From contig CANTFL010001426.1 of assembly GCA_947650285.1 (NCBI GenBank), positions 248,001-312,000 on the forward strand: a stretch of 64,000 bases of DNA, written 5' to 3'. Source of the stretch: Hyaloperonospora brassicae (Eukaryota; Oomycota; Peronosporomycetes; Peronosporales; Peronosporaceae). The position numbers and the translations under genes are program-made. Below are positions 1 to 44,893 of the stretch, one piece after another (the first letter of the stretch is position 1; every line of letters starts with the position of its first letter). A model generated the notes under the pieces. The model saw only the letters and a list, made by a program, of their open reading frames with translations. It did no database searches and had not been told where the DNA came from.

Positions 1-1500
1 GTGTTTCGACTTCACAATTTACCCCTGAAATCGTATCCGACTGTGACCCTCGGTCCACGGCGGTGTTTTGGCTATTCGTGCTCCGCACATTGGAAACAAG
101 GTTAAAGATTTTAAAACAGATGGTCAGACAGAACGTGCGAATCGTGTCCTCGAAGAAAGTATTCATGAATACGTCCACTACTTTTCAAATTGGAGTGAGT
201 TCTTTCCAATGGTTGAGTTTGCCATTAATAACTCCGTGCATGCGTCCACAACGCATACACCGTTCTACGTAAATGGCTTACGCCACCCACGTATTCCCGC
301 CCTCATACAGAGTGACTCTGAGTAAAGGGGATCAGGGACTCGCTCGAGCAAAAACCGTTTTGGCTCTTGCTCATCACGTATCACCGCTCACGCCGATACG
401 TTTGATGCCGATGTCGACAACGTCGACTTCGAAGAAATCGAGCTTAGCAGTAGCGATGAAGCTGCTGCTGCATCAGTCAATGATGAAGATTCTAGGATAT
501 TCAGCATCGTCAACGACAATGCCAGCGAGGAAGAAGACACCCTCGATGAAGAAGAGAGCAATCTCTTCGCAGTGCGCACGAAGCGCACTGAAAAACAGAA
601 CAATGAGTCAGCAGAGAACTTCCTGCTGACTCGAGAGGCGGTAGTTCGTTTCGTTCAGGACTCCATCGCAAATGCGGTGGACCGCCAAAAACGGAACGCA
701 GACAAGAATGGAAGAGCAAATGTTCTTTCATTTAAGGTTAACGACCTAGTACTACTTTCTGCGCTAAACTTACCTGGACATGTAGTCACCAATGTCGGCA
801 GTAGTAAATTACTGCCGAAATACATTGGTACTTTTGTATATTGCACCGCAAGGGCAATGCATGCACGATCAAATTGCCTCGTAGGATGCGCACGCATCCT
901 ACATCTTATGTTGGTCGTCTCCGCCCGTACCATCAGTACGTGGCCTCTTGCGAGAACGGAGATATCCGGCGCGCTCAAGAATCCCCAACAGATTCTTGTG
1001 ATCACGGACCAAACACTCAAGTTGGTCCTTCGTCAAAATAATTCGATCCTTCATCGACGTGGCCTCGCAACGAGCCGTCTGTAGCTCGTCGCGCAAACGA
1101 AGTCTCTTGCGCTCACTCTCAAGCTGAGCGAACTCAAATTCCGATCTTTCCTTCTCCCGATCGGCACGAAAACGTCGCACGTCCAACTGCAAGGCGTGCC
1201 GACGATCGTATTCGTGATCGACGTCCTCCCTCAGCTCGATCAGGTAACGCTCGTGCAGGCCCGGCGGCTGAACCCGACCTTGTCTTTCCACCGCCAACGG
1301 AACCACATGTGGATTCCCACGGTGGTCAACGCTTTCTAGTGGAGCGTATCTTGAACCACCGTGGCGATTCAGGATCAAGGACGAGCTACCTCGTCCGGTG
1401 GCGTGGGTGCCCACCTTCCTTTGACAGATAGGAACCTCGTTTCCAGCTGATGGCTGACATTGAAGTTCTCGTCCAATAGTATTACGAGAATCATCCTATA
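1..1500 (+). pseudogene. Ty3/gypsy integrase C-terminus and chromodomain (copy A, family 1)
   Basis: End of a gypsy pol polyprotein; the element's 5' part lies before the window. At about 100-325 the frame reads the integrase signature TDGQTERANRVLEE followed by FYVNGLRHPR, closely matching copy B at 33537-34586. At 640-840 comes the GPY/F-type module (NDLVLLSALNLPGH, then SSKLLPKYIG). At about 1311-1500 there is a chromodomain-like stretch (GGQRFLVERILNHR, SYLVRWRG). Several frameshifts (near 30, 110, 330 and 840) and in-frame stops inside the chromodomain make it non-coding now. An antisense ORF overlaps its last 600 bases. Integrase inserts element cDNA; the chromodomain probably steers it to chromatin. 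Family assignment is firm, exact boundaries less so. Confidence 0.85.
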
Positions 1501-2497
1501 GGTCCTCGGGCTCATCGGTAAACACGCACTTTTGGCGCTTGTATACGGATTTCAAGTTTGCAATCGCGTCCCGCATCTCAGCCGAGATGTGTGCCCTTCC
1601 CCAGGGCGAACATAGGGAATACACATCCCTATGTGCACGCTGCGAGTTGTCAACACAGCTCGCACAAGGATCACCCCAAGTGAGGCATGGAATGCCGGCC
1701 TCAATTGACAGATTATGCATCTGGTACCTTGCACCGGTTGGCGTAAGCTTTTCGAACCTGAGGCGTGTCGCCTCAAGCTTCTTAAGCCACTCTTCTCGTC
1801 CAAATTTCTTTACGTTTTGGACAAAGGCGTTCCACGCAGACAAAAGCAAGTTCTTGTCACGCTTTTGGTTGCCATTGTACCATCGATGTCTAAGAAAGAC
1901 ATCGAGATAAAAGTCTTCCTCAGCGCGAAAGTTGCTCGCGCTGGGACTCAAGCTGTGAAGCTCAGTCGCATCGAATAAGGGTATTCGATAATGTTGGCTT
2001 GTCTCGTGAGACAAGCCATTGATGAGCTGCTCGGGAAAGCGACACGGCGTGAGCTCACCTCGCTTCAAAGTGGTGCCTTTGCTAGTACCATGGCTTACAG
2101 AATGACGACGGCTCTCGCCATCGTCATCACGCTCTTGCGGGGAAGCACGGATTGATACTGGTGAGTCATAGTATTCCTCACCATAGAATTCATCATAACT
2201 GTCCAATAGACTGTGATGCATTTCACGAGTCCGCTCGTTCGACAGCGCTCTTGACGAACGATGAGGCACCGCCGGTGATCGGAATGCCTCTGGAACGTTG
2301 CGCGAGTCAGGCATGTCTGACTCGCCATAGTTGATGATCTCATTGCCAAGGTCATCATGTGCACGTGGTGCGATACCGCGTGCGTCTGCAGCACCTTCTG
2401 CTGCAGAGGGAGAACAAGCAGCAGACGCCGAAGCGTCTGCCGCAGAGGCTGGCACAGCAGCAGGCTGTGTGGTCATCAAATCACCTCGCATAGACAT
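899..2497 (-). pseudogene. Long antisense ORF of family-1 gypsy element, copy A (one stop codon)
   Basis: This 533-codon frame runs opposite to pol, from the ATG at 2497 (protein start MSMRGD) to 899, broken by a single TAG at 1496-1498. The frame is open again directly after that stop and ends GGDDQHKM. A longer in-frame start lies at 2593, but the MSMRGD start is the one shared with copy B. The N-terminal 100 residues are Ala/Ser/Pro-rich. The middle holds a Trp/Arg-rich segment (AEEDFYLDVFLRHRW) and a Cys-containing segment (CLTWGDPCASC, then DNSQRAHRDVYSL). The C-terminus is a charged, Glu/Arg-rich probable coiled coil. The ATG sits 130 bases inside the 3' LTR, so antisense transcription from that LTR is plausible. 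Function unknown; I recognise no domain. Confidence 0.7.
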
Positions 2498-2613
2498 GTT
2501 AACTATGGGAGGCAAGGTCAGGAGTGAATGGGTCTGACCTAACAAGTGCTCCCTGTCCCACTGGTGTCCAATGGGTGGCCTCCAAGTTTTCAATAGTCAC
2601 ACGGTGACTACCA

Positions 2614-2630
2614 GATAAGGGAATGGGTGA
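2614..2630 (+). other. Polypurine tract of copy A
   Basis: Purine-rich run GATAAGGGAATGGGTGA directly before the LTR start TGTAACGGGG. This is the expected place for the plus-strand primer of reverse transcription. Copy B has AAAGGGGGG at the equivalent place. Confidence 0.6.
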
Positions 2631-2940
2631 TGTAACGGGGTAGCCCGTTACATGAAATTATCATTGAAACAATTTGACAATAACGAATATTACGTCGAAT
2701 ATTATTTTAACAATATCACAGACATGGTGATATTGTTGAGATGACCGAAGGGTCTACTCATTGGTTGATATCATGATGATATAAACCCACCAATCGCTGC
2801 TAGACGCGCGCAATGGGTGGTGAGTAGACGCCATCATATACACAGTTATATTAGTATAATTAAGTCAGGACAACAGAGATTCAAGTAGTTATAGGACTAC
2901 ATTATATTAATACAGTTTTTTGCTTTTGCCAAGAGACTAG
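2631..2940 (+). repeat. Family-1 LTR (copy A 3' LTR, diverged or truncated end)
   Basis: Starts TGTAACGGGG and aligns by eye along most of its length with the LTRs at 23204-23595 and 30796-31186, including AGACGCGCGCAATG and GTTATATTAG. After about 2935 it departs from those LTRs and the expected CCCCGTTACA end is absent. The 3' end is therefore lost, recombined or from another subfamily. Confidence 0.75.
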
Positions 2941-2991
2941 TCTGACTACTTAGTCTCCTTTCCTTCCTCTGTGTTTCCTTAAAAGACCTAG

Positions 2992-3068
2992 CAGGGCACT
3001 GTCGACCACTGTCGTCAGTGGAAGTATACTCCGTACTGGTCAACCAGTACGTAGTCAACAGTGCCCTG
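2992..3068. repeat. Nested inverted repeat able to form a three-way junction
   Basis: An outer 11-bp arm, CAGGGCACTGT (2992-3002) with ACAGTGCCCTG (3058-3068), encloses two perfect inner hairpins. These are CCACTG/CAGTGG (3006-3011 and 3016-3021, loop TCGT) and GTACTGG/CCAGTAC (3033-3039 and 3044-3050, loop TCAA). It lies at the junction between the family-1 LTR of copy A and the truncated family-2 element. Its density of perfect short hairpins resembles family-1 sequence. It is not a tRNA gene: there is no anticodon arm, T-loop or A/B box. Confidence 0.6.
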
Positions 3069-3790
3069 TTTCACTTCATGCGCTTCGGGTGAGACTTCTT
3101 CCCGATCGGTTGTAGCCTCGAACGCTAATATATGCCATTCTTTATAACGTCGCGACCCCACAGACACGTACCCCTGCGATCGAGGTATCATGTCCGCTAC
3201 CACCCAAAATCCAAGCGGGGCTCCCCACCATAAAATAACCTCGCGATCACATACGTTGTTGAGCTGTAGGTGGTAGATCCTATTAGACCGGTTAGTCACA
3301 GTTAGTACCCACTCCACGTCTCGTCTTATCCAAAGTTAATCTCTTGGTGGCGCGACACCTACCCTCACTTCTGTTGATGTGTTGACTGGTATCACCACGT
3401 GTTGATCATTAGGGTTGATCGCCTGAATTGTTGATCTATAGAGTGACCTACGACCCGCTAGACAAATGCGGACTTCATCGGGTAGACATAGCGTTCCGTC
3501 CGCTAGATCCAAAGAATACACGCCGGAACCATGAGATCCATACCCAGTATAGTCTCTTGAACCACTTGATCACGGACCTATACGTCGAAATAATATACCA
3601 GTAAACCATCCAACGTGATCTTAATCTTCGTGCGCCCAGTTGTCATGTATGCGTTTTCACCTACACCGACACATTCTTGAGTCCGTCTTTCGTCGATCAT
3701 GTACCCTGCCTTACGAGCAAAGGTGGTGTCGATGATTGACACTTCAGCACCGGAATAGAACATTATAGTGGCCTTCTTATTTTTGATCTT
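3069..3790 (-). pseudogene. Retropepsin-type protease region of family-2 gypsy element (copy F)
   Basis: Reads leftward from gag. The segment 3578-3763 contains SGAEVSIIDTTFARKAG, the flap-side neighbourhood of a retropepsin active site, where copy E at 61080-61190 has ESGAEISIVDTAF. In 3336-3521 follow DLADGTLCLPDEVRICLAGR and in 3069-3317 PRSQGYVSVGSRRYKEW, both matched by copy E at 61340-61790. Stops and small frameshifts separate the three blocks. The element is cut off at about 3068, so RT and integrase are missing here. The protease would have matured Gag and Pol; it is inactive as it stands. Confidence 0.8.
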
Positions 3791-3979: not shown

Positions 3980-5515
3980 GTAGTTAACCTCTTGATCATT
4001 TACTTGTCTCTCAACGAATGCATATATGCAGAGCCTAGAACGCCCGCCTCGTACCAGATTCCATCCTGGCGAGCGTCCTTATTTAGCATCTTCATCGCCT
4101 CGGACGGAAATATTGATGCGTGCTTGGTAGGCACATACCACTTGCGCATCAAATTGTAGAGCTTTTTCACAGGGAACTTGCCACTCCCATGCAAATTTCC
4201 ACATGTCGCACACGCGTAGAAACACTTGTCCGATGGATTCCCATTACGGCCGCACTTCTGGCAATTCAATTTCTTCCAGCATCCACGATCATTATGCTTG
4301 ATTGATTCACAGTGAGTGCACGCTTTGAATAGTTCTCTGTGATCACGTAACTTAATTTGACCAGCTTTCTCATGTATCATACGATGATCTTAATTTGAAT
4401 TCGCATGATTGGAGGCATTGGTCGCACAAACTCGACGCCGTTCCATGTCATTTTCCGATACGCTTAAATCCGACTCCAAACCGCTGCTCTCGCTTTCCAC
4501 TCTGATCGCCCGGGTCGATTTTGACGGTACCTGATCAGCGTGGTATTTTGATCTCTGATCAAATTTGCCCGATTCCGTCAACGCCTTTGTGCACCGGTTT
4601 TCTATCCGCTGATACGCACGAAACGTTTCTTCCATTGGGTCGGCATCCGACAATTGCAGTAGAGCCAACTGTTCTGCTAAATCGCGATCTACCAGTGTAA
4701 AAACAAAGTGTTCCGCATGTTCCCGCCGCGTAGCAGGTCTTCCATCTTGAATCGCGACCTTGTCTTGAATCGCTACCCCATTCAATTGGCGCATATACTC
4801 CAGAGGGGTTTCGCCCGGCCGTTCGCGCGCGTGGTAATACTGTTTAGCATTCGACGCACCATGTCCTCCATATTGCACAATGAAACCTACCAGCAGTTAT
4901 TTCCACGTGGTACGAGTAGTCCAACTTAGTGGACTATGCCAATTCTGTGCCAGTCCTGTCAAAAGATCACCGAAACCCAGGCATTTAATATATCATCTGG
5001 TATTTGGTCATCGAGGAACGCCGACTTGAACTCGCTGATCCATCTTCTGGCGCGGTCTTCGTCTCGAGCTCTATAATTAAATTCCTTCAGTTCGCCGATC
5101 ACAGAGAAACAAATACGCTGGGAAGAAGGTCCTGAGTTAATCGAAACTTCCGCAGGCGCCAGTGATGGACGTATCAAGTCCTCTTGCTCCGATTTGTACG
5201 GGTTTGTCATTCGGGATCACTAAAATCCGATCGGCCTTGACGTGGTCTGACAAATTCTATCTCGACATCCGGACAATAAAATTTCTCGAGCTCTTTGTAT
5301 CTCGATTGCTTGACTTGGATATATCGCTTGACACACTGTACTCCGTTGTCTCTGTTCTATTTTCTCCTTAGCGTTATCGATTAAAGAAAACAGGTATCCA
5401 TGGATAGCCAATGTATCATCTCCGGTGACGCGTATGGCAGCCGATCGCGACTCGGCCTTACCTCCCTTAGCGCTAACAAGTAGATGAGCGGATCCACTGA
5501 GGCCTAGCGACATTC
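3980..5515 (-). pseudogene. Gag capsid and zinc-knuckle region, family-2 gypsy (copy F)
   Basis: Three consecutive reading blocks at 4959-5210, 4390-4878 and 4000-4380. The first has the capsid-entry motif DRARRWISEFKSAFLDDQ. The second contains YHARERPGETPLEYMRQLN, DRDLAEQLALLQL and an Asp/Glu-rich tail. The third carries Cys/His clusters (ACTHCES, CQKCGRNGNPSDKC) followed by LYNLMRKWYVPTKHASIF. Copy E at 59800-60775 gives the same order with IRQWYVPTKHAGLLPKQ. Stops and indels separate the blocks. Gag would form the cytoplasmic particle and bind the RNA. Assignment rests on the zinc knuckles, the position next to a protease and parallel copies. Confidence 0.8.
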
Positions 5516-6394
5516 GCTGAATGTCGATCGAGGCGTCTGACTCGATCTCCGATTTCGCCGAAGCACACTGCGACGATTCGGTGTGGTAACATTTGTCGTG
5601 TCCGCGATCGTGTTAATCTCTCGATCTTAAATCTTGGCTTTGCCTGTGATAGGGATCAGCTTCTCGTATCCCGATCGGCATGAGTAGGTGACTTGATCTT
5701 AATCGCACTTCAACAGTTTTCTTAAATTGAACACCTTCGCCACGAATCCAGCTTCATGCAAAAGTTGCATGATCCCGTAGATTTTCTTCAGCATTTTTGA
5801 TGCACTTGCCGGCCGATACTGGGCCTTGAATCTCGTCAATCAGCTTTGGCGTCATCAATTGGAGTACTAAGTATCTTGATAGCAGATTCTTGACCATCTT
5901 CCGCTCGTACGTCTTGACCAATTCTTTACGTTGCCACCCTCACGTCTTTATTTCGTCTTCACCGAACTTGAACGGTTTCGGGATCTTGTTCATAACTTGA
6001 TCGCGTTGGTCGATTTTGGTTGTTGTTTTCTGTCTCCTCGCCGTCCTCGACTAATCTTTTCTCGAGATCGCAGGTGTGACCTTGGACAACTTTTGCTCGG
6101 TTTTAACCGATAAGGGTTTTCTCTGCAAATCATTATTTGTAGCACGATCCGCCGTGATCCTCAAATGGGACAGCGGGAGGGGGTCGAGGTTATTCTTTTA
6201 AATTAAATGATCGATTTTCACCTTCTATTTTCTTGTCACCAGAGCCCCTACCAAAACTCTGATGAACTGGGATTCTTTCATGCTCACGCGTCTGTGGCGA
6301 CTCCTTGACCTTCGACGCTACGATACGACGTTCGATTTTTGATCTTCACATCTTCACTGAGGGACTCACGGTGAATCTTGAGTCACCAAAAGGT
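5516..6394 (-). pseudogene. Decayed 5' leader / Gag N-terminal region of copy F
   Basis: Lies between the primer-binding site and the recognisable Gag block. On the minus strand only broken, charged fragments can be read, in line with the Lys/Glu-rich leader of copy E (58440-59160). No motif can be assigned. Confidence 0.4.
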
Positions 6395-6410
6395 CCAGGC
6401 ACGCGCACCA
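6395..6410 (-). other. Primer-binding site of copy F
   Basis: One base inside the LTR end, the minus strand reads TGGTGCGCGTGCCTGG, ending (on this strand) opposite a tRNA 3' end GGCACGCGCACCA. The same site follows the LTR of copy E at 58375, also after a one-base spacer. The cognate tRNA was not identified. Confidence 0.7.
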
Positions 6411-6411
6411 T

Positions 6412-7693
6412 TGTGGTAGAGTGGTGATCGCTCTTTTGAGGAGTCGATACCAACTATCCACTGGCGCCCGGAAGACCGATTAACGGAGGGAGTAATCCAT
6501 TTCTGTTCTCTTAATAGCCTTCCTCACCTTGCGTACCTGTCAGTGGGGCGGGTTGCACTCTTCCAGGTGGACTCGTGTTAATGGAAAACTATACCGGGTT
6601 TGCACTGGGGTCGAGATTTGATCTCGGTGTGAAAACCTTTACACCGCGAGCGGTCTTGATGTAATCTTGTGGAATTCTTTACGGGGTCACTTGTATACTT
6701 GTAGAGTGCTCGATGTGAGTCACCTTGATCGGTAACAGACCACTTTGTCCAAATGTAGACAATAATTCGCGGGCCTTCTGACCACTTGAGTCGCCTCGCG
6801 ATCTTGAGTCCCCAACCACAAAGGGTTTCCTGCGTACAGTCGCAGTTGGGTGTTGTTTGATAGTTCTTGATCCCTGGCCAGACAATCCGAAGATATCAAT
6901 TGATTAAAGTATGTGACTTTTCCTTGACGTCGGGTGGCCAGTGATCCACCCGGAGGAGAAGTCGACACGTGTACGTTGAAGCAAATTGAACTATATTTAA
7001 TGTTAACCAACCATACCCAACAAACCTATCTCTATCTCCATGTCTTAGAAATCGCAGGCCACGCGTCGTTCATGCTGGAATGTAGCAACGTTGAACTAGG
7101 GTGGCACACACCTGATCTACTTGTCCGATCACAGTCGCCTTTCTGGTCGCCGATCGTGTGGTGTAACCCACCCTAACCTCATCGCGATCACATACCTGAT
7201 CACTGATAACGATCTTGATGACCTCCCTGATCGCGGGTCACATGGTGTGGTACCTACACTTCCAATCGCGATCGCGTGCCGTGGCCACACCAACACATGG
7301 TGGGGCACACAATCTTCCGGTAAGGGTCGCATGTCCTGGTCCACATCAACCTGATTGCAATTACATGTCTGATCACCCATCACGGTACTGATCTACTCCG
7401 TGATCGCGATCGCCTTGCTCATCGCGGTTTCCTTCTTGATCGACTGATCGCCAGTGTAATCACCCCCCCACTAGAATAGCCCCATCTTTATAACTCGTAC
7501 CCTTCGCCCGTCGTACTTAAGCCCGACATCGCACGCCCTATCCTGTCTGATCTGATGTCCCGTTCTGTATACCCGTCCAGTGGACGTGATCTGACCAGTT
7601 GTGGGACCGACATTGCCAACCGTCTGCCCACTCGAATGTAACTGGAGCGCGAGCCCTTCTTGTATCACGAATGTCACTTGTCGCTTCACCAAA
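6412..7693 (-). repeat. Family-2 LTR, GATC-rich subfamily (5' LTR of copy F)
   Basis: About 1.28 kb, reading on the minus strand from a degenerate start (TTTGG at 7693) to CTACCACA at 6412. It is nearly identical along its whole length to 42123-43404 (inverted) and 43614-44893 (same orientation). It adjoins a primer-binding site and Gag to the left, which makes it a 5' LTR. Its upstream half is crowded with GATC sites. Confidence 0.9.
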
Positions 7694-23203: not shown

Positions 23204-23595
23204 TGTAACGGGGCAGCCCGTTACATGGAAATTGTCATTTGAGAGATAATGACAATAAAGAATATGAAGTTGAATATTCTTTTTACAATATCACCAATGG
23301 TGGTGATATTGATGGGTCGACCAAAGAGTCTGTTCGCTGGTCGATATCTTGACGATATCAACCCACCAATCAACGCAAGACGCGCGCAATGAGTGGTGAC
23401 GAGACGTCACCATACACTCAGTTATATTAGCATAATTAAGTTAAGTCAAACAGAGAGACAGTGGTTAAAGACTTAATTATATTAATTAAACAGTTCTGCT
23501 TTTACCTTATCTACGCTTCCTCGCTTGCCTCGTGTACATCTGTCGGGGCACCGAAAATTTTGGGTTAAGTTTACGCAAGGGTGTGCCCCTTTACA
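23204..23595 (+). repeat. Family-1 5' LTR (element D/B)
   Basis: 392 bp, starting TGTAACGGGG and ending CCCCTTTACA. About 9% different by eye from its partner at 30796-31186. Within it, perfect hairpins follow one another, for example TGTAACGGG/CCCGTTACA at the start, AGAATAT/ATATTCT, AATATCACC/GGTGATATT and GGTGACG/CGTCACC. Confidence 0.93.
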
Positions 23596-23597
23596 CC

Positions 23598-23605
23598 TGG
23601 TAGCC
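23598..23605 (+). other. Primer-binding site of element D/B
   Basis: TGGTAGCC begins two bases after the LTR end and would pair with a tRNA ending GGCTACCA. The cognate tRNA was not identified. It differs from the family-2 site. Confidence 0.5.
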
Positions 23606-23639
23606 TTTTGTAGTCCTTCCAAGGACCACAACATCCAAC

Positions 23640-24701
23640 ATGAACATGTTGAATGATGAAGAGACCTTTTACGCCACGCGTGAAGGGTTTACCCATTTGA
23701 GTGACATCGAATGGAGTGCGGTAGAACGAATGAGTTCTACTGTAGGCGAGTTCGCCATAAGCGCCATATTGGAGTCTCTAGACAGAAACCAACAACATGC
23801 CGCTATCGCCAAGTTCATTTAACATGAACTTGTCGCCGAAAGGGAGAAAGTAGCCTTGCTTCACCATCAAGGCTCTCAACAGGCCGAGCAGTTGAGAGAA
23901 CTCGGTGCTCAACAGACAGAGCTGTTGAGACAGCAGCAATTCCATGCTGCTGTGGGCGGGACGGCGCATGCGCGCCGTCCCGAGGTCATGAAGGTTGACA
24001 TCTCCAAGTACAGTGGAGTCCCGGAAGACTCCCTGTTGCTGTGGTTTGTCGAACTCGACAGAGCCCCAAGGGCTCGTCGCGTCGAAGATGAGCAAATGAA
24101 ACTTACATTTGCTCAAACCCACTTGGCAGGGCGTGCCAAAACTTGGTCCCTGGGCCTCGAGAGTAGCGACCCACATGTGTTTAGGTCGCTAGATGACTTC
24201 AAGTCCCGGCTCAGACAAACGTTTGAGCCGCCACAAGCTGAGTTCAGGGCTCGTTCTGAGCTCCTGAAACTCAAGCAGGGTAAGCGTGATGTGCACGCTT
24301 ACGCTCAACATATACGACTCCTCGCGAGTAGTATAATTGCTAGCCCAGTTCATGAACACACGTTGATTACGGTGTTCATGCAAGGGCTCACAGAAGGGCC
24401 CGTCAGGAGACACCTGTTCCGCCTTGAGCTGAATACGCTTGAAGAAGCGATATCAGCCGCGGAACAGGAAGACTTTAGCATGAGACAGGCTCATGCTAGC
24501 TCAAACTCTTACCGTCCACTGAGACGACAAGAGATCGGAGGTCAGGATTTAATGGACCTCTGCTATGTTGAGAGCGAGAGACCTCGCTCTTCAAACAACA
24601 AGCGATTGCAGAGGTGCAATCGCTGTCGAAAGTTAGGGCACTACGCATACGAGTGTAGTGCTCCACGCCCAGTACCAAACAGTACTGGGCGAAATGGATG
24701 A
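23640..24701 (+). pseudogene. Gag polyprotein of family-1 element D/B (one stop codon)
   Basis: A 353-codon frame from the ATG at 23640 (MNMLNDEETFYATREG) to the TGA at 24699-24701, with one TAA at codon 61 (23820-23822). Order: N-terminal helix; Gln-rich coiled coil (about residues 70-105); capsid-like core with LWFVELDRAPRARR, GRAKTWSLGLES, LRQTFEPPQAEFRARSEL and YAQHIRLLASSI; then a CX2CX4HX4C zinc knuckle CNRCRKLGHYAYEC near residue 325. Gag assembles the cytoplasmic particle and packages element RNA. The coding sequence is packed with perfect short hairpins, and the single stop lies in the loop of one of them. Pol follows in another frame. Confidence 0.88.
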
Positions 24702-24783
24702 CCATTCGCCAGAAAGGGCAATGGGCGTGGGTCCACCGCTGTTGCGAAGCCGCAACAGCGAGACTAACCATAAAAAAATAGTC

Positions 24784-25477
24784 GGGGTCAGTAGGGGCGG
24801 AGCGCCCTACTGATCCAGCAAACTCAAGAGAATTTGCAAATCTCTTGAAGAAAGTTGCTCCAGATACACAATCATTGTGTGTCTCTGCACCTGGTGATGA
24901 CGTTTCGCTCATCACCTTGAAGCTGGAAGCGACAAATGATTTGTCGCTTCGTGCCCTAGTAGACTATGGGGCGTCGAACAACTTTGTTCGTCGCCAGTCA
25001 CTAGAGGGTCGTAGGCTCAAGTTCGTTGAGCGCGACATTCCCCTCACAAGGATGACGGTGCGCCTTGCAACAGGCGCATCGATTACCGTTAAGAAAAGTG
25101 TAGTAGGAATCCACTACACGCTAGAGGGCAAACAGTACGATGATGACTTCATCGTATTGGATCTGGATGACAAATTTGATGTCATCCTGGGATTACCTTG
25201 GCTCAGAAAGTACGAGCCAAGGGTGATCTGGCAGCATCGATCCGTGAAGATGCCTGCCGCTTGTTCATTAGATGGCCATATGATGAACGCCACAAAGCGT
25301 CCACAAGCGTGTGGATGTTCTGCGAGTGAGTGCGATGGCCTCACTTGCGGTCCGGTCGTTAGCACGAATGCACAAGATCACAGTGTAGTTGATCACTACA
25401 CTGTGGATGACATGATCTTAGGGAGGGCAAGAAACACCGGAATTTACGCCCACCGGTGGCTCAATAAAAGTCTTGTT
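24784..25477 (+). pseudogene. Retropepsin-like aspartic protease of element D/B
   Basis: Open frame in the -1 phase relative to Gag, following it after about 80 bases. The active-site region is ALVDYGASNNFVRR (near 24955), with Tyr where Ser/Thr is usual after the Asp. Later motifs are VGIHYTLEGKQYDDDFIVLD and FDVILGLPWLRKYEPR, the conserved C-terminal ILG.P...... of retropepsins in gypsy elements. The enzyme would cleave Gag and Pol in the particle. After 25480 stops appear, and the element ends at an inversion breakpoint near 25640-25690. The rest of pol lies at 36590-32325 on the other strand. Confidence 0.85.
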
Positions 25478-25639
25478 TAATCCTAGCTGTAGAGTCACAC
25501 CGGCACCTGCAGTCGGCCACTGCAGCTGAAGCTAGCAAGTTGTCTCAACCGGTTAAGACACGAACCGCCAAGGACAGCTCAGCGAACTCGGTAAAGTCAA
25601 ACAAGAAATCCCTCCTTCCAGAGAAGGACACAGTTTAAT

Positions 25640-25700
25640 GGATTTGAAAGCTGGCTGCGGTGCAATTCAAGTCAGGACCTTCCATTTTTTTCAAGCACAG
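25640..25700. other. Left breakpoint of an ~11-kb inversion
   Basis: Family-1 sequence, with its typical hairpins, ends here and LINE-derived sequence begins. The missing 3' half of the element is found reversed at 36590-30796. The exact base was not resolved. Confidence 0.55.
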
Positions 25701-30250: not shown

Positions 30251-30795
30251 CTGTTGCCTTCATCCGTCCGTGATTACACGTTTGCATAGCTATATTCTGG
30301 ATTTGTATGGGGTGTGCGTCATGGCAAGAGGTCCGGCAATGGCCCCCCCCTCTAAGATGGCTTCACCACCGAACCAGAAAGGTGGATTAGATGTGCCATG
30401 TATTTGAAAGGAATTAATGAATATGACGGCGACGACCATCATCTAGTCGCCTGCCACTTCATCTTCGCGCGATTTACTGATTGTTGACTATTTATAAACC
30501 TCTGCTGAGTTGAGACCGTCCTATATCACGCTCTGTTGGACGGCCTACAAGCATTTTATATATCGCGCATCTCTCTTGGACAACTGGGTCCGTGATTGTT
30601 GTGATGTCAGCGGCTTGACACACTCGCCTAATATATATCCAGATATTTGCCTAAGACCATCAAATTTGCATCAAGAGCCGAAGTCAACGATAACGAGGAC
30701 GGTAGTGTCACAATTGATGTTCGCCGGACAATTGATGACAACCTGCGCGCGGGGATGCAGCTCAAGTAGCTTCATCGGGGCGATTTGACCAACGA
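30251..30795 (+). pseudogene. LINE 3' region, cut by a family-1 insertion
   Basis: Broken reading including RASLLDNWVRDCCDVSGLTH and MTTCARGCSSSSFIGAI. It ends at the AACGA (30791-30795) target duplication, immediately followed by a family-1 LTR in minus orientation. Its continuation is probably at 23198-22381 on the minus strand. Confidence 0.5.
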
Positions 30796-31186
30796 TGTAA
30801 CGGGGCACACCCTTGAGTGAACTTAACGCAAGTGTTTCGTTGCCTCGACAGACGTACACGAGGAAAACGAGGAAGCGTAGATAAGGAAAAGTAGAACTGT
30901 TATATCAATATAATTAAGTCTTTAACCACTGTCTCTCTGTTTGACTTAACTTAATTAAACTAATCTAACTCAATGTATGACGACGTCTCGTCACTACTCA
31001 TTGCGCGCGTCTTGCGGCGATTGGTGGGTTGATATCGTCAAGATATCAACCAACGAGCAGACTCTTTGGTCGACCCATCAATCTCACCACTATTGGTGAT
31101 ATTGTTAAAAGAATATTCAACTTCATATTCTTTATTGTCATTATCTCTCAAATGACAATTTCCATGTAACGGGCTGCCCCGTTGTA
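30796..31186 (-). repeat. Family-1 3' LTR (element D/B)
   Basis: 391 bp in minus orientation, partner of 23204-23595, with terminal TGTAACGGGG at 30796 on the plus strand (the LTR's CCCCGTTACA end). The far end is mutated (CCCCGTTGTA). The polypurine tract AAAGGGGGG precedes it on the minus strand at about 31187-31198. Confidence 0.92.
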
Positions 31187-31316
31187 TCACCCCCCTTTAC
31201 TGATAGTCACCCTGTGACTATCAAAAATATGGCGGCCAACCGTTGGACACCATTGGAACAGGGAACACTTGTTGGGTCCGTTCCATTCACTTTCCACCCG
31301 ACCTCACATAGTTAAC

Positions 31317-32921
31317 ATGTCTATGCGAGGTGACTCAAGACCTACACAGCCCGGTGCTGTGCCAGCCTCTGCAGCAGACGATTCGTCTTCTGATTCTCCT
31401 TCTTCGCCTGCAGCAACAGGTTCTGCAGGTGAACGCGGCACCTCACCGCGTGCGCATGATGGCCCCGACGTTGGGATTATCTATTCTGGCGAGCCAGACG
31501 TATCTGACTCGGGCAATGCTCCAGAGGCGTCTCGCTCACCGGCGACGCCTCAGTATTCGCCAAGGCCACTGCTGAATGAACGGACTCGTGATTTGCATCA
31601 CAGTCTGTTCGGCAGTTACGACGATGATCAGGGTGGTGAGGAATATTACTACTTACCACTGCTGACTCGTGCCCCTTCGCACGAGCGTGATGACGATGGC
31701 GTGAGCCATCGTCAATCCGGGAGCCGTGGTACCAACAAAGGTACCACTGTGAAGCGTGATGAGCTAAAGCCGTGGCGTTTGCCCGAACAACTCATCAATA
31801 GCTTGTCTCATGAGACAAGCCAACACAATCGAATACCCTTATTCGATGCGACTGAGCTTCACGGCTTGAGTCCTAGCGCGAAGAACTTTCGCGCTGAAGA
31901 AGACTTTTATCTCGATGTCTTCCTTAGACATCGATGGTACAATGACAACCAAAAGCGTGAAAAGGCCTCGCTTTTGGCTGCGTGGAACGCCTTCGTCCCA
32001 AACGTAAAGAATTTTGGACGAGAAGGGTGACTCAAGAAACTTGAGGCGACACGCCTCAGATTCGAAAAGCGAACGCCAACCGGTGCTAGGTACCGGTTGC
32101 ACTGTTTATCGAGTGAGGCAGGCATTCCTTGCCTCACATGGGGAGACCCTTGTGCGAGTTGTGTTGACAACTCGCAGCGTGCACATAGGGATGTGTATTC
32201 CCTAGATTCGCCCTGGGGAAGTGCACACATCTTGGCTGAGTTGCGTGACGCGATTGCAAACTTGCAATCCGTCTACAAGCGCCAAAAGCGCGTGTTTGCC
32301 GATGGGCCCGAGGGCTTATCGGATGAGTCTCGTCATATTGGTGAACGAGACCTTCAACATCCATCAACAGCTGAGACCGGGGCTCCCAGCTGTTCCAAGA
32401 GGGTGGATACCCCCGCCGCTGGACGAGGTAGCTCGTCCTTGATTCTGAATCGTCACGGTGATTCAAAATACGCTCCACCAGAAAGCGTTGACCACCGTGA
32501 GCATCCACCAAAGGATGTGGTGGAGGAGGAAAAACCTCCTCCAGATGATTCGGTTCACCATCTCGTCCCTTACGAGATGGACGCGCAATCAACGAATTGC
32601 TGGATGACTTAAAGCACGAGCGCGACTGGTGCTACGCTTTGACCGAAACCGTGCGGAAGAACCGCAAGGATCGCGGGGCTGATCGGGCGATGGATCGCGC
32701 CGATTATTCCGCAGCGCAGCTTCAGGTCGAGCGGGATGTCCGCTCCCTTTTGGCGAGCTTACGACAGCTCGCGGGGAGATCTCTTGGTTGAGTTACGAGG
32801 TATCTTATCCGCGCGACCAGACGGATCGTCTGGAGCGCAACGCAAGAACTTGATGGATGTTCTTGAACGTGGGGGCTATCTTCATCGGAAGAAAAAAGCT
32901 TGTACTGACAGTACGGCCTGA
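31317..32921 (+). pseudogene. Long antisense ORF of family-1 element, copy B
   Basis: Runs against pol from the ATG at 31317 (MSMRGDSRPTQPG), 131 bases inside the 3' LTR, like copy A. The frame is broken by a TGA at 32028-32030, where copy A has Trp, then open to 32612. A shift continues it to 32921, ending KKKACTDSTA. It shares with copy A FRAEEDFYLDVFLRHRWYN, GIPCLTWGDPCASCVDNSQR and GRGSSSLILNRHG. The C-terminal charged region (LDDLKHERDW, LQVERDVRSLLASLRQL) differs in sequence but keeps coiled-coil character and the ending LERGGYL. From about 32325 it overlaps the pol chromodomain and integrase tail on the other strand. Function unknown. Confidence 0.72.
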
Positions 32922-34586
32922 GCCTCACCACGTAAAACTTAGGATGCGTGCGCATCTTACGTGGCAATTCAATCGTGTATGCATTGCCCTCGCGATGCAA
33001 CACTCGAAATAACCCAATTTACTTCGGCAGTAGTTTACTACTTCCAACACTAGTGACTGCATGTCCAGGTAGGTTTACCGTAGACAGTAGTACTAGGTCG
33101 TTAACTTCAAATGAAAGAACATTTGCTCTTCCATTCTTTTCTGCGTTCCGTTTCTGACGGTCCACCGCGTTTGCGATGGAGTCCTGAACGAAACGGACTA
33201 CCTCCTCTTGAGTCAGGAGGAAGTTTTCTGCTGACTCTTTGTTTTGACTTTCAGTGCGCTTCATGCGCACTGCTAAGAGATTGCTCTCTTCTTCAGCGAG
33301 GTTGTCTTCTTCCTCGCTGGCATTGTCGTTGACGATGCTGAATATACCAGCATCGTCACCACCATCCGAGTCAATAATAGCGTCGTCGCTATTATTGTGG
33401 TGATCTTGCTCACCGATGTCGACCTGATCGACATCGGCATCATACGCAACGACGTTAGCGTCGGCACGTGATGAGCAATAGCCAAAAGGGTATATGCTTG
33501 AGCGAGTCCCTACCCCCTTATCCAAGAGTCACACTCTTAAAAGGCGGGAACACGTGGATGGCGTAAGCAATTCACGTAAAATGGTGTGTGCTGGGTAAAA
33601 GCATCCACCGAATTACTGATGGCAAATTCCACCATGAGAAGGAATTCGCTCCAACTCGGAAACGAATGGACATATCCTCGAAGGATCTCTTCGAGGACAC
33701 GGTTCGCACGTTCCGTCTGACCATCTGTTTCTGGATGGTTAGAAGTAGACATCTTCAATCGTGTTACAAGATAACGGAACACGGTTTGCCAAAATTTAGC
33801 CGTGAATCGAGGGTCACGGTCGGATACGAGCTCACGGGGTAACCCGTGAAGTATAAAGACCGTGTCGAGAAAGACACGAGCACAACCTTGAGCCTTGATG
33901 GAATCAGGTACAGCAGCAAGATGCACCATCTTGCAGAATCGGTTAACAAACACAAGAATACCACTATTCTTGCGGTCGTCTACGGGAAACCCGAAGACGA
34001 AGTCCATTGTAACGGACTGCCAGCACTCTGTCGGAACAGGCAGAGGCTTCAATGGCGCACGGGATGAAGGACTAGGCTTCACCCTTTGACAAACCTTGCA
34101 AGCACGTATGTAATTGCGGACAAACTGATACTGGCGTGGCCAGTAAAAGTCACGACTGACCGTGAGGTAAGTCTTTTCTCTACCACGATGGCCGCCTGTT
34201 GGGGCATCGTGACACTCATACATGATGCGTAAACGCAAATCATGATGAGCGGGTACGACGACACGAGGCTTGTCGTCGGCAACAGCTCTATAGAACAGCA
34301 ATCCGTTGCGTGTACCTAAATGATCCGGTGAGGATCGGTACAAAGCCGGTAAATCCCTCATGGATCTACTGGATGGATTCACCAGATGATCCATCAATCG
34401 AAGAAGATCCTTATCTTCCGCGTATGCCTTTCGTACGTCGTCAAGTTTACTTGACGACGGGACACTGACTGACAGTGTCGCAACAGTGGGATTATTCTCA
34501 CTGTTGATTTGTGTGTCCGGATCGAAATAGGGCCGGCGCGAAAGCGCATCATCGACGACGTTAAGTCGTCCTGGTTTATTCTCCAC
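32325..34586 (-). pseudogene. Integrase and chromodomain of element D/B
   Basis: The integrase block at 33537-34586 begins KPGRLNVVDDALSRRPYFDP, the RNase H/integrase link. It has the zinc-finger region YECHDAPTGGHRGREKTYLT, the catalytic core with VTMDFVFGFPVD, LVSDRDPRFTAKFW and the ETDGQTERANRVLEE region carrying the third acidic residue. After a frameshift near 33530 come an acidic linker, SANAVDRQKR-like helices and the GPY/F module (FEVNDLVLLSTVNLPG). A chromodomain follows at about 32330-32520 (GGQRFLVERILNHR, SYLVQRRGYPPSWNSWEPRS). All blocks except the shift are in frame, so decay is light. An antisense ORF covers the last 600 bases. Confidence 0.9.
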
Positions 34587-34589
34587 GGA

Positions 34590-34991
34590 GAAATTATACT
34601 ACGCGAAGAAAGACAGCCACCTCGTTATCCTTTGCGAGAGGTGTTGACTGTTTACGGCCGTGCGTAATGACGCACGTTCCGTATAGACGATGAACGGTCA
34701 ATCTCCCAAAAGATAGACCCGGAACTTAGCCAGTGCATACTTCATGGCAAGGATATCCTTGTCACGCACTGGGTAATTGCGCTCACCTGCCTGCAGCTGA
34801 CGCGACTGATAACAGATGACGCGCTCTGCGCCATCTGCATCGAACTGCATTAACGCACAGCCGATTGCGAAATCGCTGGCGTCACAGACCACATGAAGAG
34901 GTCTGTCCTATTCTGCAATCGCCAAGATCGGCGATTGCATCAAGCTCCGCTTGATACCTTCAAAGGAACTCTGGCAATCAGCGTTCCATGA
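34590..34991 (-). pseudogene. RNase H domain of element D/B
   Basis: VCDASDFAIGCALMQFDADG carries the first catalytic Asp of Ty3-type RNase H. It is followed by ICYQSRQLQAGERNYPVRDK and DILAMKYALAKFRVYLLGD. The frame equals that of the RT block upstream and the integrase downstream, with stops at the block ends. The enzyme removes RNA from the RNA/DNA hybrid during reverse transcription. A decayed second copy of this motif set is at 46560-46690. Confidence 0.88.
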
Positions 34992-35790
34992 TCACTTGAC
35001 ATTTTTCTTGAGTAAGCAAGAAAGATGAACAGTCATCTCGGCGTAGTTGCGCGAGTACTTGTGCAAGTACGCCGCAAGACCAAGGAACTTCCTTAGTCCC
35101 TTGACATCGACTGGCACTGGCCAGTCGGTAATCGCCTTGATCTTCTCGGGATCAGGGCGTACGCCGTGTTTACCCACGATGCACCCAAGAAGTGGAATTT
35201 CGCTAGCCGCGAATATACACTTCTTGAGGTTGGCGTACAACTTATGCTTGCGCATAAGTTGAAGGACTTGACGAACGTGAGTTCTGTGAACTTCAACGTC
35301 CGTCTTTCCGTCCATAGCCCGGCTATGGACGAACAAATCGTCGAAGTAACTCGGTGCGAAATCTCGCACCGGTCTCAACAGATTTGTGACACATCTGTTG
35401 AATGTTGCAGGGGCATTACTCAGCCCCTGTGGCATCACTAGCCACTCCCACAGCATCCCGCTGGTGGCGCTCACTGCTGTATACGGGATGTCCCGTTCAC
35501 GCATGAGGATCTGATGGAACCAATCCATCAGATCCATGGACGAAAAGATGGTACTCTTTTACATACCATCTATGATGACGTCCTTCCTCGGTATCGGCGT
35601 CTGAGCCGGTACCGTTGCAGCATTCAACTTGTTGAATGCGTGCACTATCCGCCATCCTCCTGTGGCCTTTAACACACAAAAGGTCGGAGATCTGTGAGGG
35701 GATGTCGATTCCCTCACATGGCCCGCTGCTAAGCGATCGGCAAAGAACTTGTCGATCGCTAGTACTTGTTCACGAGGCAGTGGCCACTAT
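34992..35790 (-). pseudogene. Reverse transcriptase of element D/B
   Basis: Reads in one frame from about 35786. PREQVLAIDKFFADRLAAGH, then ESTSPHRSPTFCVLKATGGW and RIVHAFNKLNAATVPAQTPI, then after one TAA the block SSMDLMDWFHQILMRERDIP with motif A. MPQGLSNAPATFNRCV is motif B and SYFDDLFVHSRAMDG the YxDD catalytic box (YFDD). GCIVGKHGVRPDPEKIKAI and GLRKFLGLAAYLHKYSRNYA complete the thumb/connection. Two nonsense codons (before 35786 and near 35570) inactivate it. Catalytic residues are otherwise intact. Confidence 0.92.
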
Positions 35791-36590
35791 TTCATGACAC
35801 AGTACTTCGAGCCCGGTTTGAGCTCGGTCTCGTGTCGAGTTCCTTTGTCCTTAGGCAACTCGCAAGGTACGGATTCAGGGAACACATCCCTGAATTTGAT
35901 CAAATCCTTATACAAAGGATTTGCCTGAAGCGACTTCCAGACTTGAGACGTGTATCGCTCAATCCGAGTCTTCTGATTGAGTACACTTTCGTCCATCGAT
36001 GAGCTGCTGAGAACCCGTTCGTCCCCAGCAAATACTGTTGCCGACCGAATATCGGCTACATACTCATCCTCTGTGGCGAGTATGCAGATCTGATTGACTT
36101 TGCCACTACGCAGATCACGCAAGAACCGTTTCGGTTCTAGCGTTGGCAACTGAGTTGTCTCCGAAGTCAACTTCGGAGGCACAATCAGATCAAGCATATA
36201 AGCGCCTACGCTTGATCCGTCATTAACCAAGACGTTCAACGTCTCGGTTACTTCCTGGGAACTTGCTTCCACAGGTTGCTGAGGGTCTGGTCCCTCAGCA
36301 AGTGACTCTTGAGGAATTCCTTCCTCAAGCACGTGGGGACTTATTCCCTCGACGTCTTCCGACTGTGGCTGTGCAACCACAGTCAGGCACCGATTCTCTA
36401 CGGTCGACTCTCCAGTCGACCTAGTATCTACATGTTGCCCTTTGAAGGAAACAGGTTTCTTACTTCTAAGATGCTGCCCTCCAGGCATGCATCCATGTCC
36501 AATTCCACTCGACTTATTCGAGTGGTGGACCTTCGGCGCAGCCTGTACTCCTGTGCAGCCGCCGGTAGCTTAAGGATGCTAGACATATGC
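35787..36590 (-). pseudogene. Protease-RT linker of element D/B
   Basis: The block 35787-36488 ends FPESVPCELPKDKGTRHETE LKPGSKYC, the usual N-terminus of gypsy RT. Before it is an acidic linker (EDVEGISPHVLEEGIPQESL). Perfect hairpins such as CCACTCGA/TCGAGTGG near 36515 continue to about 36545. Family-1 sequence stops by 36590, where an RNase H relic of another element begins on the plus strand. This is the right breakpoint of the inversion. Confidence 0.75.
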
Positions 36591-42122: not shown

Positions 42123-43404
42123 TTTGGTGAAGCGACGAGTGACATTCGCGATACAAGAAGGGGTCGCGCTCCAGTTACATCCGAGTGGGCAGACGGTTGA
42201 CAACGTCGGTCACACAACTGATCAGATCACGTCCACTGGACGGGTATACAGAACGGGACATCAGATCAGACAGGATGGGGCGTGCGATATCGGGCTAAAG
42301 TACGACGGGCGAAGGGTACGAGTTATAAAGATGGGGTTATTCTAGTGGGGGGTGATTACACTGGCGATCAGTCGATCAAGAAGGAAACCGCGATGAGCAA
42401 GGCGATCGCGATCACGGAGGTGATCGGTACCATGATGGGTGATCAGACATGTAATTGCAATCAGGTTGATGTGGACCAGGACATGCGACCCCGACCGGAA
42501 GAGTGTGTGCCCCACCATGTGTTAGTGTGGCCACGGCACGCGATCGCGATTGGAAGTGTAGGGACCACACCATGTGACCCGCGATCAGGGAGGTCATCGA
42601 GATCGTTATCAGTGATCAGGTATGTGATCGCGATGAGGTTAGGGTGGGTTACACCACACGATCGGCGACCAGAAAGGCGACTGTGATCGGACAAGTAGAT
42701 CAGGTGTGTGCCACCCTAGTTCAACGTTGCTACATTCCAGCATGAACGACGCGTGGCCTACGATTTCTAAGACATGGAGATAGAGATAGGTTTGTTGGGT
42801 GTGGTTGGTTAACATTAAATATAGTTCAATTTGCTTCAACGTACACGTGTCGACTTCTCCTCCGGGTGGATCACTGGCCACCCGACGTCAAGGAAAAGTC
42901 ACATACTTTAACCAAGTGATATCTTCGGATTGTTTGGCCAGGGATCAAGAACTATCAAACAACACCCAACTGCGACTGGACGCAGGAAACCCTTTGTGGT
43001 TGGGGACTCAAGATCGCGAGGCGACTCAAGTGGTCAGAAGGCCCGCGAATTATTGTCTACATTTGGACAAAGCGGTCTGTTACCGATCAAGGTGACTCAC
43101 ATCGAGCACCCTACAAGTATACAAGTGACCCCGTAAAGAATTCCACAAGATTACATCAAGACCGCTCGCGGTGTGAAGGTTTTCACACCGAGATCAAATC
43201 TCGACCCCAGTGCAAACCCGGTATAGTTTTCCATTAACACGAGTCCACCTGGAAGAGTGCAACCCGCCCCACTGACAGGTACGCAAGGTGAGGAAGGCTA
43301 TTAAGAGAACAGAAATAGGATTACTCCCTCCGTTAATCGGTCGTCCGGGCGCCAGTGGATAGTTGGTATCGACTCCTCAAAAGAGCAATCACCAGTCTAC
43401 CACA
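42123..43404 (+). repeat. Family-2 LTR (3' LTR of element C)
   Basis: About 1.28 kb, ending TCTACCACA. Nearly identical to 43614-44893 in the opposite orientation and to 6412-7693. The start is degenerate (TTTGGTGAAG). A purine-rich AAAGGCGCAGGAAG just upstream could be its polypurine tract. No matching duplication flanks it on both sides, as expected for the 3' LTR of a 5'-truncated element. Confidence 0.9.
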
Positions 43405-43613
43405 ATATCGCACTAATATCCAAGCCATGACTGACTGACCGATTCATAAGAACTAAAAAATTTACGGAAGTGGCTCGGTCTTGTCGATGTTTTGAACAAT
43501 TATAGTGCAAAACATACAGAAATGACTCGGGTATACTAATTTCTGTTTAATTATATGGAATGGTGCTGAATAAGCACACAAAACAATTCTTTTCAAACTG
43601 TTATTAGAAATTA

Positions 43614-44893
43614 TGTGGTAGACTGGTGATTGCTCTTTTGAGGAGTCGATACCAGCTATCCACTAGCGCCCGGACGACCGACTAACGGAGGGAGTACTCC
43701 TATTCTGTTCTCTTAATAGCCTTCCTCACCTTGTGTACCCGTCGGTGGGGCGGGTTGCACTCTTCCAGGTGGACTCGTGTTAATGGAAAACTATACCGGG
43801 TTTGCACTGGGGTCGAGATTTGATCTCGGTGTGAAAACCTTCACACCGCGAGCGGGGTTGATGTAATCTTGTGGAATTCTTTACGGGGTCACTTGTATAC
43901 TTGTAGGGTGCTCGATGTGAGTCACCTTGGTCGGTAACAGACCGCTTTGTCCAAATGTAGACAATAATTCGCGGGCCTTCTGACCACTTGAGTCGCCTCG
44001 CGATCTTGAGTCCCCAACCACAAAGGGTTTCCTGCGTCCAGTCGCAGTTGGGTGTTGTTTGATAGTTCTTGATCCCTGGCCAAACAATCCGAAGATATCA
44101 CTTGGTTAAAGTATGTGACTTTTCCTTGACGTCGGGTGGCCAGTGATCCACCCGGAGGAGAAGTCGACACGTGTACGTTGAAGCAAATTGAACTATATTT
44201 AATGTTAACCAACCACACCCAACAAACCTATCTCTATCTCCATGTCTTAGAAATCGTAGGCCACGCGTCGTTCATGCTGGAATGTAGCAACGTTGTACTA
44301 GGGTGGTACACACCTGATCTACTTGTCCGATCACAGTCGCCTTTCTGGTCGCCGATCGTGTGGTGTAACCCACCCTAACCTCATCGCGATCACATACCTG
44401 ATCACTGATAACGATCTCGATGACCTCCCTGATCGCGGGTCACATGGTGTGGTCCCTACACTTCCAATCGCGATCGCGTGCCGTGGCCACACCAACACAT
44501 GGTGGGGCACACACTCTTCCGGTCGGGGTCGCATGTCCTGGTCCACATCAACCTGATTGCAATTACATGTCTGATCACCCATCATGGTACCGATCACCTC
44601 CGTGATCGCGATCGCCTTGCTCATCGCGGTTTCCTTCTTGATCGACTGATCGCCAGTGTAATCACCCCCCACTAGAATAACCCCATCTTTATAACTCGTA
44701 CCCTTCGCCCGTCGTACTTTAGCCCGATATCGCACGCCCCATCATGTCTGATCTGATGTCCCGTTCTATATACCCGTCCAGTGGACGTGATCTGATCAGT
44801 TGTGTGACCGACGTTGTCAACCGTCTGCCCACTCGGATGTAACTGGAGCGCGACCCTTCTTGTATCGCGAATGTCACTCGTCGCTTCACCACA
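43614..44893 (-). repeat. Family-2 solo LTR
   Basis: 1280 bp, TGTGGTGAAG...GTCTACCACA read on the minus strand. Flanked by the 4-bp duplication ATTA at 43610-43613 and 44894-44897. There is no internal region, so it is a solo LTR left by LTR-LTR recombination. It faces the 42123-43404 LTR across a 209-bp spacer. Confidence 0.9.

Follow-up and report, generated by a model that had tools for sequence, protein, structure and literature searches.

Genome-scale ordered RNA structure (GORS) has been described in viruses whose genomes contain stem-loops throughout, with pairings that are poorly conserved between relatives and paired sites that are less variable (PMC7642675). The mean excess of folding energy given in that source is 7-9% for hepatitis C virus and 15% for SARS-CoV-2, the latter with a local peak of over 50% in ORF3a, and the highest mean it gives for a vertebrate virus is 23.4% (PMC7642675). 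RNA viruses are known to have whole-genome folding, for a purpose that is unsettled, and we describe it here in a retrotransposon. The stretch concerned is at positions 23204-25630 of a window of the Hyaloperonospora brassicae genome, the window being the whole 64,000 nt of DNA analyzed (contig CANTFL010001426.1, positions 248,001 to 312,000). Judged by its sequence, the element that carries the stretch is a Ty3-type long terminal repeat (LTR) retrotransposon, which we have named F1. It is a chain of short perfect hairpins, and selection on the stability of many such local hairpins is well supported.

A sequence-only reading of the stretch had counted at least 24 perfect inverted repeats with arms of 8 bp or more, nearly all with loops of 12 nt or less, and had put the number expected by chance at 0.4. 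The chain is real, and the count is larger. Taking arms of at least 8 bp and loops of up to 15 nt the stretch has 27 perfect inverted repeats that do not overlap, all with loops of 12 nt or less, compared with a mean of 0.5 and a maximum of 2 in 40 dinucleotide shuffles, so the chance figure was of the right size. There are 51 repeats with arms of at least 6 bp (6.5 in the dinucleotide shuffles), and eight with arms of at least 10 bp (0.03). All six hairpins that had been singled out as examples are present in their places. They include one with 12-bp arms and a loop of 1 nt (24926-24950, plus strand) and one with 11-bp arms and a loop of 5 nt (25379-25405, plus strand); another, at 23958-23981, is part of a maximal repeat with 11-bp arms at 23957-23982.

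The stretch represents the 5' part of an F1 copy (23204-25480, plus strand) comprising the 5' LTR, leader, gag and protease, and the last of its 27 hairpins ends at 25405. The 5' LTR (23204-23596, plus strand) begins with TGTAAC and has five hairpins with arms of at least 8 bp, at 23204-23225, 23231-23256, 23257-23282, 23286-23311 and 23394-23412. The gag open reading frame (ORF) at 23856-24701 (plus strand) matches Retrotrans_gag and Ty3_capsid, with a CCHC zinc knuckle below cut-off, and has 12 hairpins compared with 0.53 (maximum 3) in 200 codon-preserving shuffles. For the aspartic protease ORF at 24845-25480 (plus strand; RVP_2) the values are six and 0.44 (maximum 3). Across the five F1 ORFs in the window, 6-12 hairpins are observed and the averages of 200 such shuffles each are 0.28-0.53. 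As had been claimed, the non-coding LTR shows the chain too, its five hairpins comparing with 0.09 (maximum 1) in dinucleotide shuffles. Hairpin density is therefore far above both dinucleotide- and codon-preserving controls.

The window contains two further F1 pieces, each with a hairpin chain. One piece (30790-36530, minus strand) contains part of pol with reverse transcriptase (RT) and integrase (IN), the non-coding tail and the 3' LTR, and has 50 hairpins with arms of at least 8 bp. Within it the RT ORF piece (34992-35537, minus strand; RVT_1) has six hairpins compared with 0.28 in codon shuffles, and the integrase ORF (33537-34586, minus strand), with the H2C2 zinc binding domain over cut-off and the rve core just below, has six compared with 0.42. 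The other piece (451 to about 2912, plus strand) is older and diverged, about 80% identical, and covers the 3' part, the tail and the start of the 3' LTR; it has 15 hairpins, counted over 451-3030. The whole window has 118 repeats with arms of at least 8 bp, and 92 of these are inside the three F1 stretches (451-3030, 23204-25640 and 30790-36530), giving densities of 8.55 per kb there and 0.49 per kb in the rest. The other 53 kb contain 26 repeats where about 13 are expected from shuffles, i.e. near background. This agrees with the claim that the family-2 elements of the window lack the chain, but elsewhere in the genome two sister families have chains of a different form.

A search of the genome (100.6 Mb in 898 contigs) gave at least 40 matches to F1 gag, 40 of 40 at 96% identity or more, and at least 150 to its RT, 150 of 150 at 94% or more. 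We used 18 copies of about 8 kb. L023, from which the element is mostly absent, was left out, and L017, cut by a contig end, was used only in the analyses of double changes and loop inversions. Domains PF03732, PF08284, PF00078 and PF17921 are over cut-off and PF00665 is just below, and the order is gag, protease, RT and integrase (in copy L012, RT at 3241-3783 and IN at 4192-5238). LTRs of about 393 nt, starting with TGTAAC and ending with GTTACA, are found at both ends of 17 of the 18 copies; L014 has no 5' LTR match. An exact 5-bp target-site duplication is present in five of the 18 (L009, L012, L018, L026 and L027) and in the others it differs or is shifted, the ends being blast-derived. 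In the more intact copies gag is an ORF of 396 codons and overlaps pol, which is a long ORF; there is also a third, overlapping ORF, and the non-coding tail is 1.1 kb long. The gag/pol (about 1486-1590) and pol/third ORF (5250-5500) overlaps are in different frames, suggesting frameshifting, and in L012 and L027, among the 18 copies, pol is open for about 1600 codons. The best named relatives of the integrase are in Peronospora and Phytophthora. A further integrase relative, P0059, on a 1.2-kb contig labeled Aeromonas veronii, is probably oomycete contamination. No DNA relatives of F1 outside this genome were found in the viral contig or genome contig collections searched.

The chain covers all of the element, about 8 kb, including pol, the third ORF and the tail. 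Each of the 18 copies has 85-114 hairpins, end to end, and their flanks have few except near a further LTR. In copy L010 there are 15 hairpins in gag (0.7 in codon shuffles), 54 in pol (1.5), nine in ORF3 (0.5) and 19 in the 1.1-kb tail; the corresponding counts for L025 are 15, 55, 11 and 18. In L012 the longest gaps without an arm of at least 7 bp reach 190 nt, and 29% of 25-nt windows are free of such hairpins compared with 96% in shuffles. Hairpin count drops weakly with LTR divergence (rho 0.49, p 0.045 for 17 copies without L014; rho 0.44, p 0.066 with L014 kept).

Constraint on the stems was measured by setting the stems on one copy and scoring variation in the others, averaged over 18 references (L014 included). 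Variants present in at least two other copies are termed shared and were inherited, and those in one copy are termed private and arose mostly after insertion. In the non-coding tail the fraction of columns with a shared variant is 0.045 in stems, 0.236 in loops and 0.179 in spacers, whereas the fractions with a private variant are 0.166, 0.210 and 0.165 respectively. For shared variants the fractions in stems, loops and spacers are 0.075, 0.221 and 0.179 in the LTRs, 0.008, 0.048 and 0.055 in gag, and 0.031, 0.087 and 0.069 in pol with ORF3. When L012 alone served as reference and L014 was left out, stems over the whole element had an odds ratio of 0.36 (p = 4e-20) for shared variants, and one of 0.82 (p = 0.016) for private variants. 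The private effect is seen in pol (odds ratio 0.70, p = 0.001), and is not significant in other regions. Since the stems are poor in shared variants while private variants differ little, pairing was guarded in the active element, and near-neutral decay followed.

Changes from one Watson-Crick pair to another occur in 13 of 1285 pairs in 17 copies, compared with 7.2 in shuffles, none of 200 reaching 13. With three further copies over positions 5400-7590 the count is 11 of 313 pairs compared with 4.6 (0 of 200 reach 11). Coding sequence alone has five compared with 2.2 (one of 200 reaches 5) and is the sole region that stands out. All 13 double changes are of transition type and none is a transversion; with the older copies two of 11 are transversions. 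Six of 1012 conserved pairs have a double change common to two copies. A G-U intermediate is found for eight of the 13 pairs and an A-C intermediate for two, a pattern that was noticed afterwards and in which one LTR position accounts for two of the eight; G-U intermediates would suit RNA. The shuffles ignore relatedness and the p-values take columns as independent, so that with shared ancestry both overstate the certainty.

These counts replace a larger excess (17 vs 7.7, and 16 vs 5.0) that contained two alignment errors. The start of L014 had been assumed despite the lack of a 5' LTR match, so that its double changes in the 5' LTR are doubtful, and some at 6160-6260 were doubtful because the two diverged copies winC and L017 align poorly there; the set therefore excludes L014 and these positions. 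In a separate count, double changes at 2254-2272 were an alignment error in which window piece A ran past its homologous end. A hint of frequent transversion double changes (20 of 64) vanished once the misaligned regions and L014 had been removed.

Ten other RT loci from the same genome were compared with F1. Two are relatives, with RT identities of 63% and 67%; a further two are remote, at about 30%, and no match to the F1 RT was obtained for the other six. The two sister families, L034 and L036, have chains of their own. L034 has 40 hairpins with arms of at least 8 bp compared with 1.5 expected. L036 has a chain of short hairpins, with 5-bp arms and 3-nt loops at 41 places compared with 3.9. 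The excess of 5-bp arms in L036 jumps at a loop of 3 nt, the counts for loops of 0-2 nt being 4, 9 and 8 compared with 4.4, 4.7 and 3.6, as required of a physically folding single strand. Repeats with 6-bp arms and loops of 0-2 nt are also in excess (6, 19 and 9 compared with about 1), and we read these as 5-bp stems with loop ends that match by chance. Favored loop sizes and closing pairs vary by family. In L034 (1-6001) the outermost base of the 5' arm is G or C in 49 of 54 stems and the arm is C-rich and then purine-rich, unlike F1, and the closing pair is 5' G/A in 38 of 54. Of the 108 short hairpins of L036 (1-6001), 81 have a 5' C/T closing pair, with the pyrimidine on the 5' side and the purine on the 3' side.

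The remaining eight RT loci have no chain, with 0-4 hairpins of arm at least 8 bp in 6 kb. Three of these were checked by shuffling; two are at background and L033 is slightly above it for arms of at least 7 bp (10 compared with 5.3, maximum 9). The smaller pieces L039 and L042 belong to F1 and agree with its pattern, and L040 and L041, a subfamily near L034, agree more weakly (five and four hairpins with arms of at least 8 bp, compared with 0.2 and 0.3). Hairpin positions overlap between the three families no better than on rotation (p 0.32, 0.31 and 0.88), the proteins being 45-50% identical. The chain is a trait common to the three families; the individual hairpins are not.

The chance that a stem contains one further pair is far above random up to a limit characteristic of the family, and is then about random. 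F1 reaches its limit at 10 bp, L034 at 8 bp and L036 at 5 bp. Shorter arms are richer in GC in F1 (rho -0.43, p = 1.5e-5; mean arm GC 0.60 for 8-bp arms and 0.49 for 10-bp arms) and in L036 (rho -0.30, p = 0.004). Because short arms are GC-rich, we have replaced a fixed stem length by a target stability for F1 and L036, though not for L034. Calculated with RNA parameters the F1 hairpins have a mean energy of -12.55 kcal/mol with a standard deviation of 2.35, compared with 3.61 for arms drawn from the spacers, a ratio of 0.65. The ratio rises to 0.76 when DNA parameters are used, and in F1 only does the 95% bootstrap interval of the RNA-DNA difference exclude zero. Energies in L036 are also narrowed (0.73 RNA, 0.79 DNA; difference not significant).

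In 200-nt windows the mean folding z for F1 is -6.95 on the plus strand and -6.25 on the minus strand, and in copy L012 97% of 39 windows have z below -2. The corresponding values are -2.37 and -2.71 for L034 and -2.05 and -2.45 for L036, and two control loci give -0.07 and -0.34. The excess of folding energy of 200-nt windows on the plus strand is about 49% in F1, 16% in L034 and 15% in L036. Of the possible pairing registers, the one with the least room for synonymous change is rare in F1 pol (seven of 56, p = 0.0006). No sequence motif is evident in F1 stems or loops, and a strand test based on the composition of the loops, on first mismatches, on GNRA loops and on the flanking bases gave no consistent asymmetry.

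Among the roles that had been suggested from the sequence, genome-scale ordered structure is supported by the conservation of stems, the modest compensatory excess and the uniform energies in F1 and L036. We consider it probable that the F1 genome has been selected to fold along its length into local perfect hairpins of roughly fixed stability, whereby its RNA is hidden or compacted. Stability would be held at about -12.5 kcal/mol (RNA parameters) with little regard to sequence or position, and the acting form is likely to be mainly the element RNA; our confidence in an RNA-only version is moderate. The folding would bury the RNA in units too short for Dicer-type enzymes and out of reach of antisense small-RNA complexes, and could make it compact for Gag particles. 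We infer that hiding and compaction of the element RNA together constitute the benefit, and rank this first. Transposon loci are the main origin of 25-nt small RNAs in Phytophthora (PMC3804510), which counts in its favor. A long-hairpin precursor of small interfering RNA (siRNA) or microRNA has a stem that is unbroken over some 20 bp or more. F1 stems fall short of this, the longest arm being 12 bp in the window stretch and 14 bp in L012, and small-RNA evasion therefore fits better than production, both having been raised as possible roles. Family-specific geometry speaks for a contribution of the element's own Gag or RT. A bolder version, which we offer tentatively as a rather unlikely possibility, is that the clade writes its genome as beads at a family-specific energy. 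The beads would be perfect on either strand, with self-folding of the sense RNA and of the antisense small RNAs as the result. The chain would then be a sequence-independent armor against RNA silencing, evolved anew in each family over the same proteins.

A number of observations weigh against selection for stable folding of the element RNA. G-U pairs hold far better than A-C in an RNA helix, and it is odd that they are not favored here, because a structure in the sense RNA should tolerate G-U. There are 17 shared G-U and 18 shared A-C among the 1012 conserved pairs (L014 included), 37 and 38 overlapping windows with interior G-U and A-C respectively in F1 (0.4 and 0.7 expected), five and 12 in L034, and about equal numbers among stem-end mismatches. 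Folding of the minus strand is almost as strong as that of the plus. The rarity of G-U therefore suggests that both strands fold (sense RNA together with antisense RNA or complementary DNA (cDNA)), or that the reader of the hairpins needs a regular helix, or that there is a strict threshold. L034 has no correlation of arm length with GC and its energies are barely narrowed relative to the null (0.93 RNA, 1.01 DNA). The register effect of F1 pol is absent in F1 gag (four of 15) and ORF3 (four of 13), in L034 (14 of 42) and in L036 (25 of 75). Double changes show no clear excess in the tail with the 3' LTR (6 vs 3.7, 14 of 200 shuffles) or in the 5' LTR (2 vs 1.2, 72 of 200). Hairpin size differs among families in one host, with 5-bp stems in L036, which is not predicted by a shared host defense. 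Finally, inverted repeats in Phytophthora are described as the strongest small-RNA sources per base (PMC3804510), so folding might also provoke silencing.

Some of these features could be accommodated if the hairpins were dispersed assembly signals, with a family's own Gag (or RT) binding hairpins of a given size and so achieving selective packaging and self-recognition. Stem length stops sharply at the family size of about 10, 8 or 5 bp, the favored loop sizes and closing pairs are family-specific, and the need for a regular helix could explain the missing tolerance of G-U. Yet F1 stems and loops lack an evident motif, and the trade-off of arm length against GC in F1 and L036 points to stability, not shape. 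Dispersed signals are possible, but on this evidence somewhat unlikely. Chance, base composition or coding constraint can be regarded as already refuted, by the dinucleotide and codon shuffles, by the chain in the non-coding LTR and tail, and by the eight RT loci that lack it.

The sequence-only reading had also proposed a mutational process that perfects inverted repeats. The element's reverse transcriptase could write and repair such repeats by fold-back template switching, with no function needed, and this would account for pairing that is strictly Watson-Crick, for the near symmetry of the strands and for a geometry specific to each family. Such events do occur. On testing 211 loop variants we obtained three candidate inversions, of which two are exact with the arms unchanged, in L016 at about 2263 and in L024 at about 6898 (L012 element coordinates), the loop sequences of the copies being ATAAG/CTTAT and AGTTC/GAACT. 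The third (inverted match 0.75) resembles a one-base shift and was not counted. The two exact inversions show that the hairpins take part in strand switching, but rarely. Template switching predicts stems that change as often as spacers, and in pairs; in the tail, shared variation in stems is about 4-fold lower, and a mere six of 1012 conserved pairs have a double change in two copies. Copying does not predict the arm-GC trade-off, and simultaneous copying should not favor transitions beyond the mutation spectrum, whereas none of the 13 double changes is of transversion type. Because the stems are conserved and not merely paired, we regard template switching as improbable as the main cause. 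Covariation became weaker on cleaning the alignments, but the transversion double changes that would have favored a mutational origin have gone as well, and our estimate is therefore unchanged. Less probable still is a protective effect, in which paired bases are shielded from a mutagen of single-stranded cDNA or RNA so that stems freeze and accumulate. Stems do vary less than loops in the active element, as this would require. But extra pairs should accumulate, and extension past 10, 8 or 5 bp is about that of chance; moreover the non-stem singletons (C>T 113, G>A 132, A>G 91, T>C 83) show no one-sided, deaminase-like spectrum. We think this very unlikely.

The window also contains a very long inverted repeat at 42161-44856, with arms of 1154 nt that are 99% complementary and 388 nt apart, and a related copy at 6412-7693. 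It lies outside the hairpin family.

F1 resembles the oomycete Ty3-type elements (Metaviridae) in having LTRs with gag, protease, RT and integrase in the Ty3 order. In open PubMed Central papers, a search that leaves subscription journals and preprints outside, we found no report of a hairpin chain in oomycete Ty3-type elements, nor of any hairpin-chain retrotransposon. Single-stranded RNA phages have dispersed packaging hairpins along the genome, and F1 is similar in having many short stem-loops along a coding genome; it differs in lacking an evident common binding motif. In the source consulted, compact folding is argued to shield viroids and HIV-1 targets from the RNA-induced silencing complex (RISC), so structure in viroids is proposed, as we propose for F1, to keep RISC off its target (PMC3185485). 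Viroids are however small and non-coding, while F1 is an 8-kb coding element of separate short hairpins, in which evasion is putative. The closest likeness is to GORS. F1 has a folding excess along the element and many stem-loops, its paired sites are less variable, and between F1 and its sisters pairings are not conserved while structure is kept. The excess of about 49% is about twice the highest vertebrate-virus mean given in PMC7642675, a comparison that is approximate since window and shuffle method differ. GORS is a property of positive-strand RNA virus genomes, whereas F1 is an LTR retrotransposon that works like GORS but is not a member, and the F1 stems are perfect, poor in G-U and present in the non-coding LTR and tail as well. 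It follows that much of the synonymous and non-coding sequence of an element can be shaped by folding. With three sister families of different hairpin size in one genome, the purpose of genome-wide folding becomes testable by comparison within a host. We call the F1 chain GORS-like, and extreme, in a new class of element.

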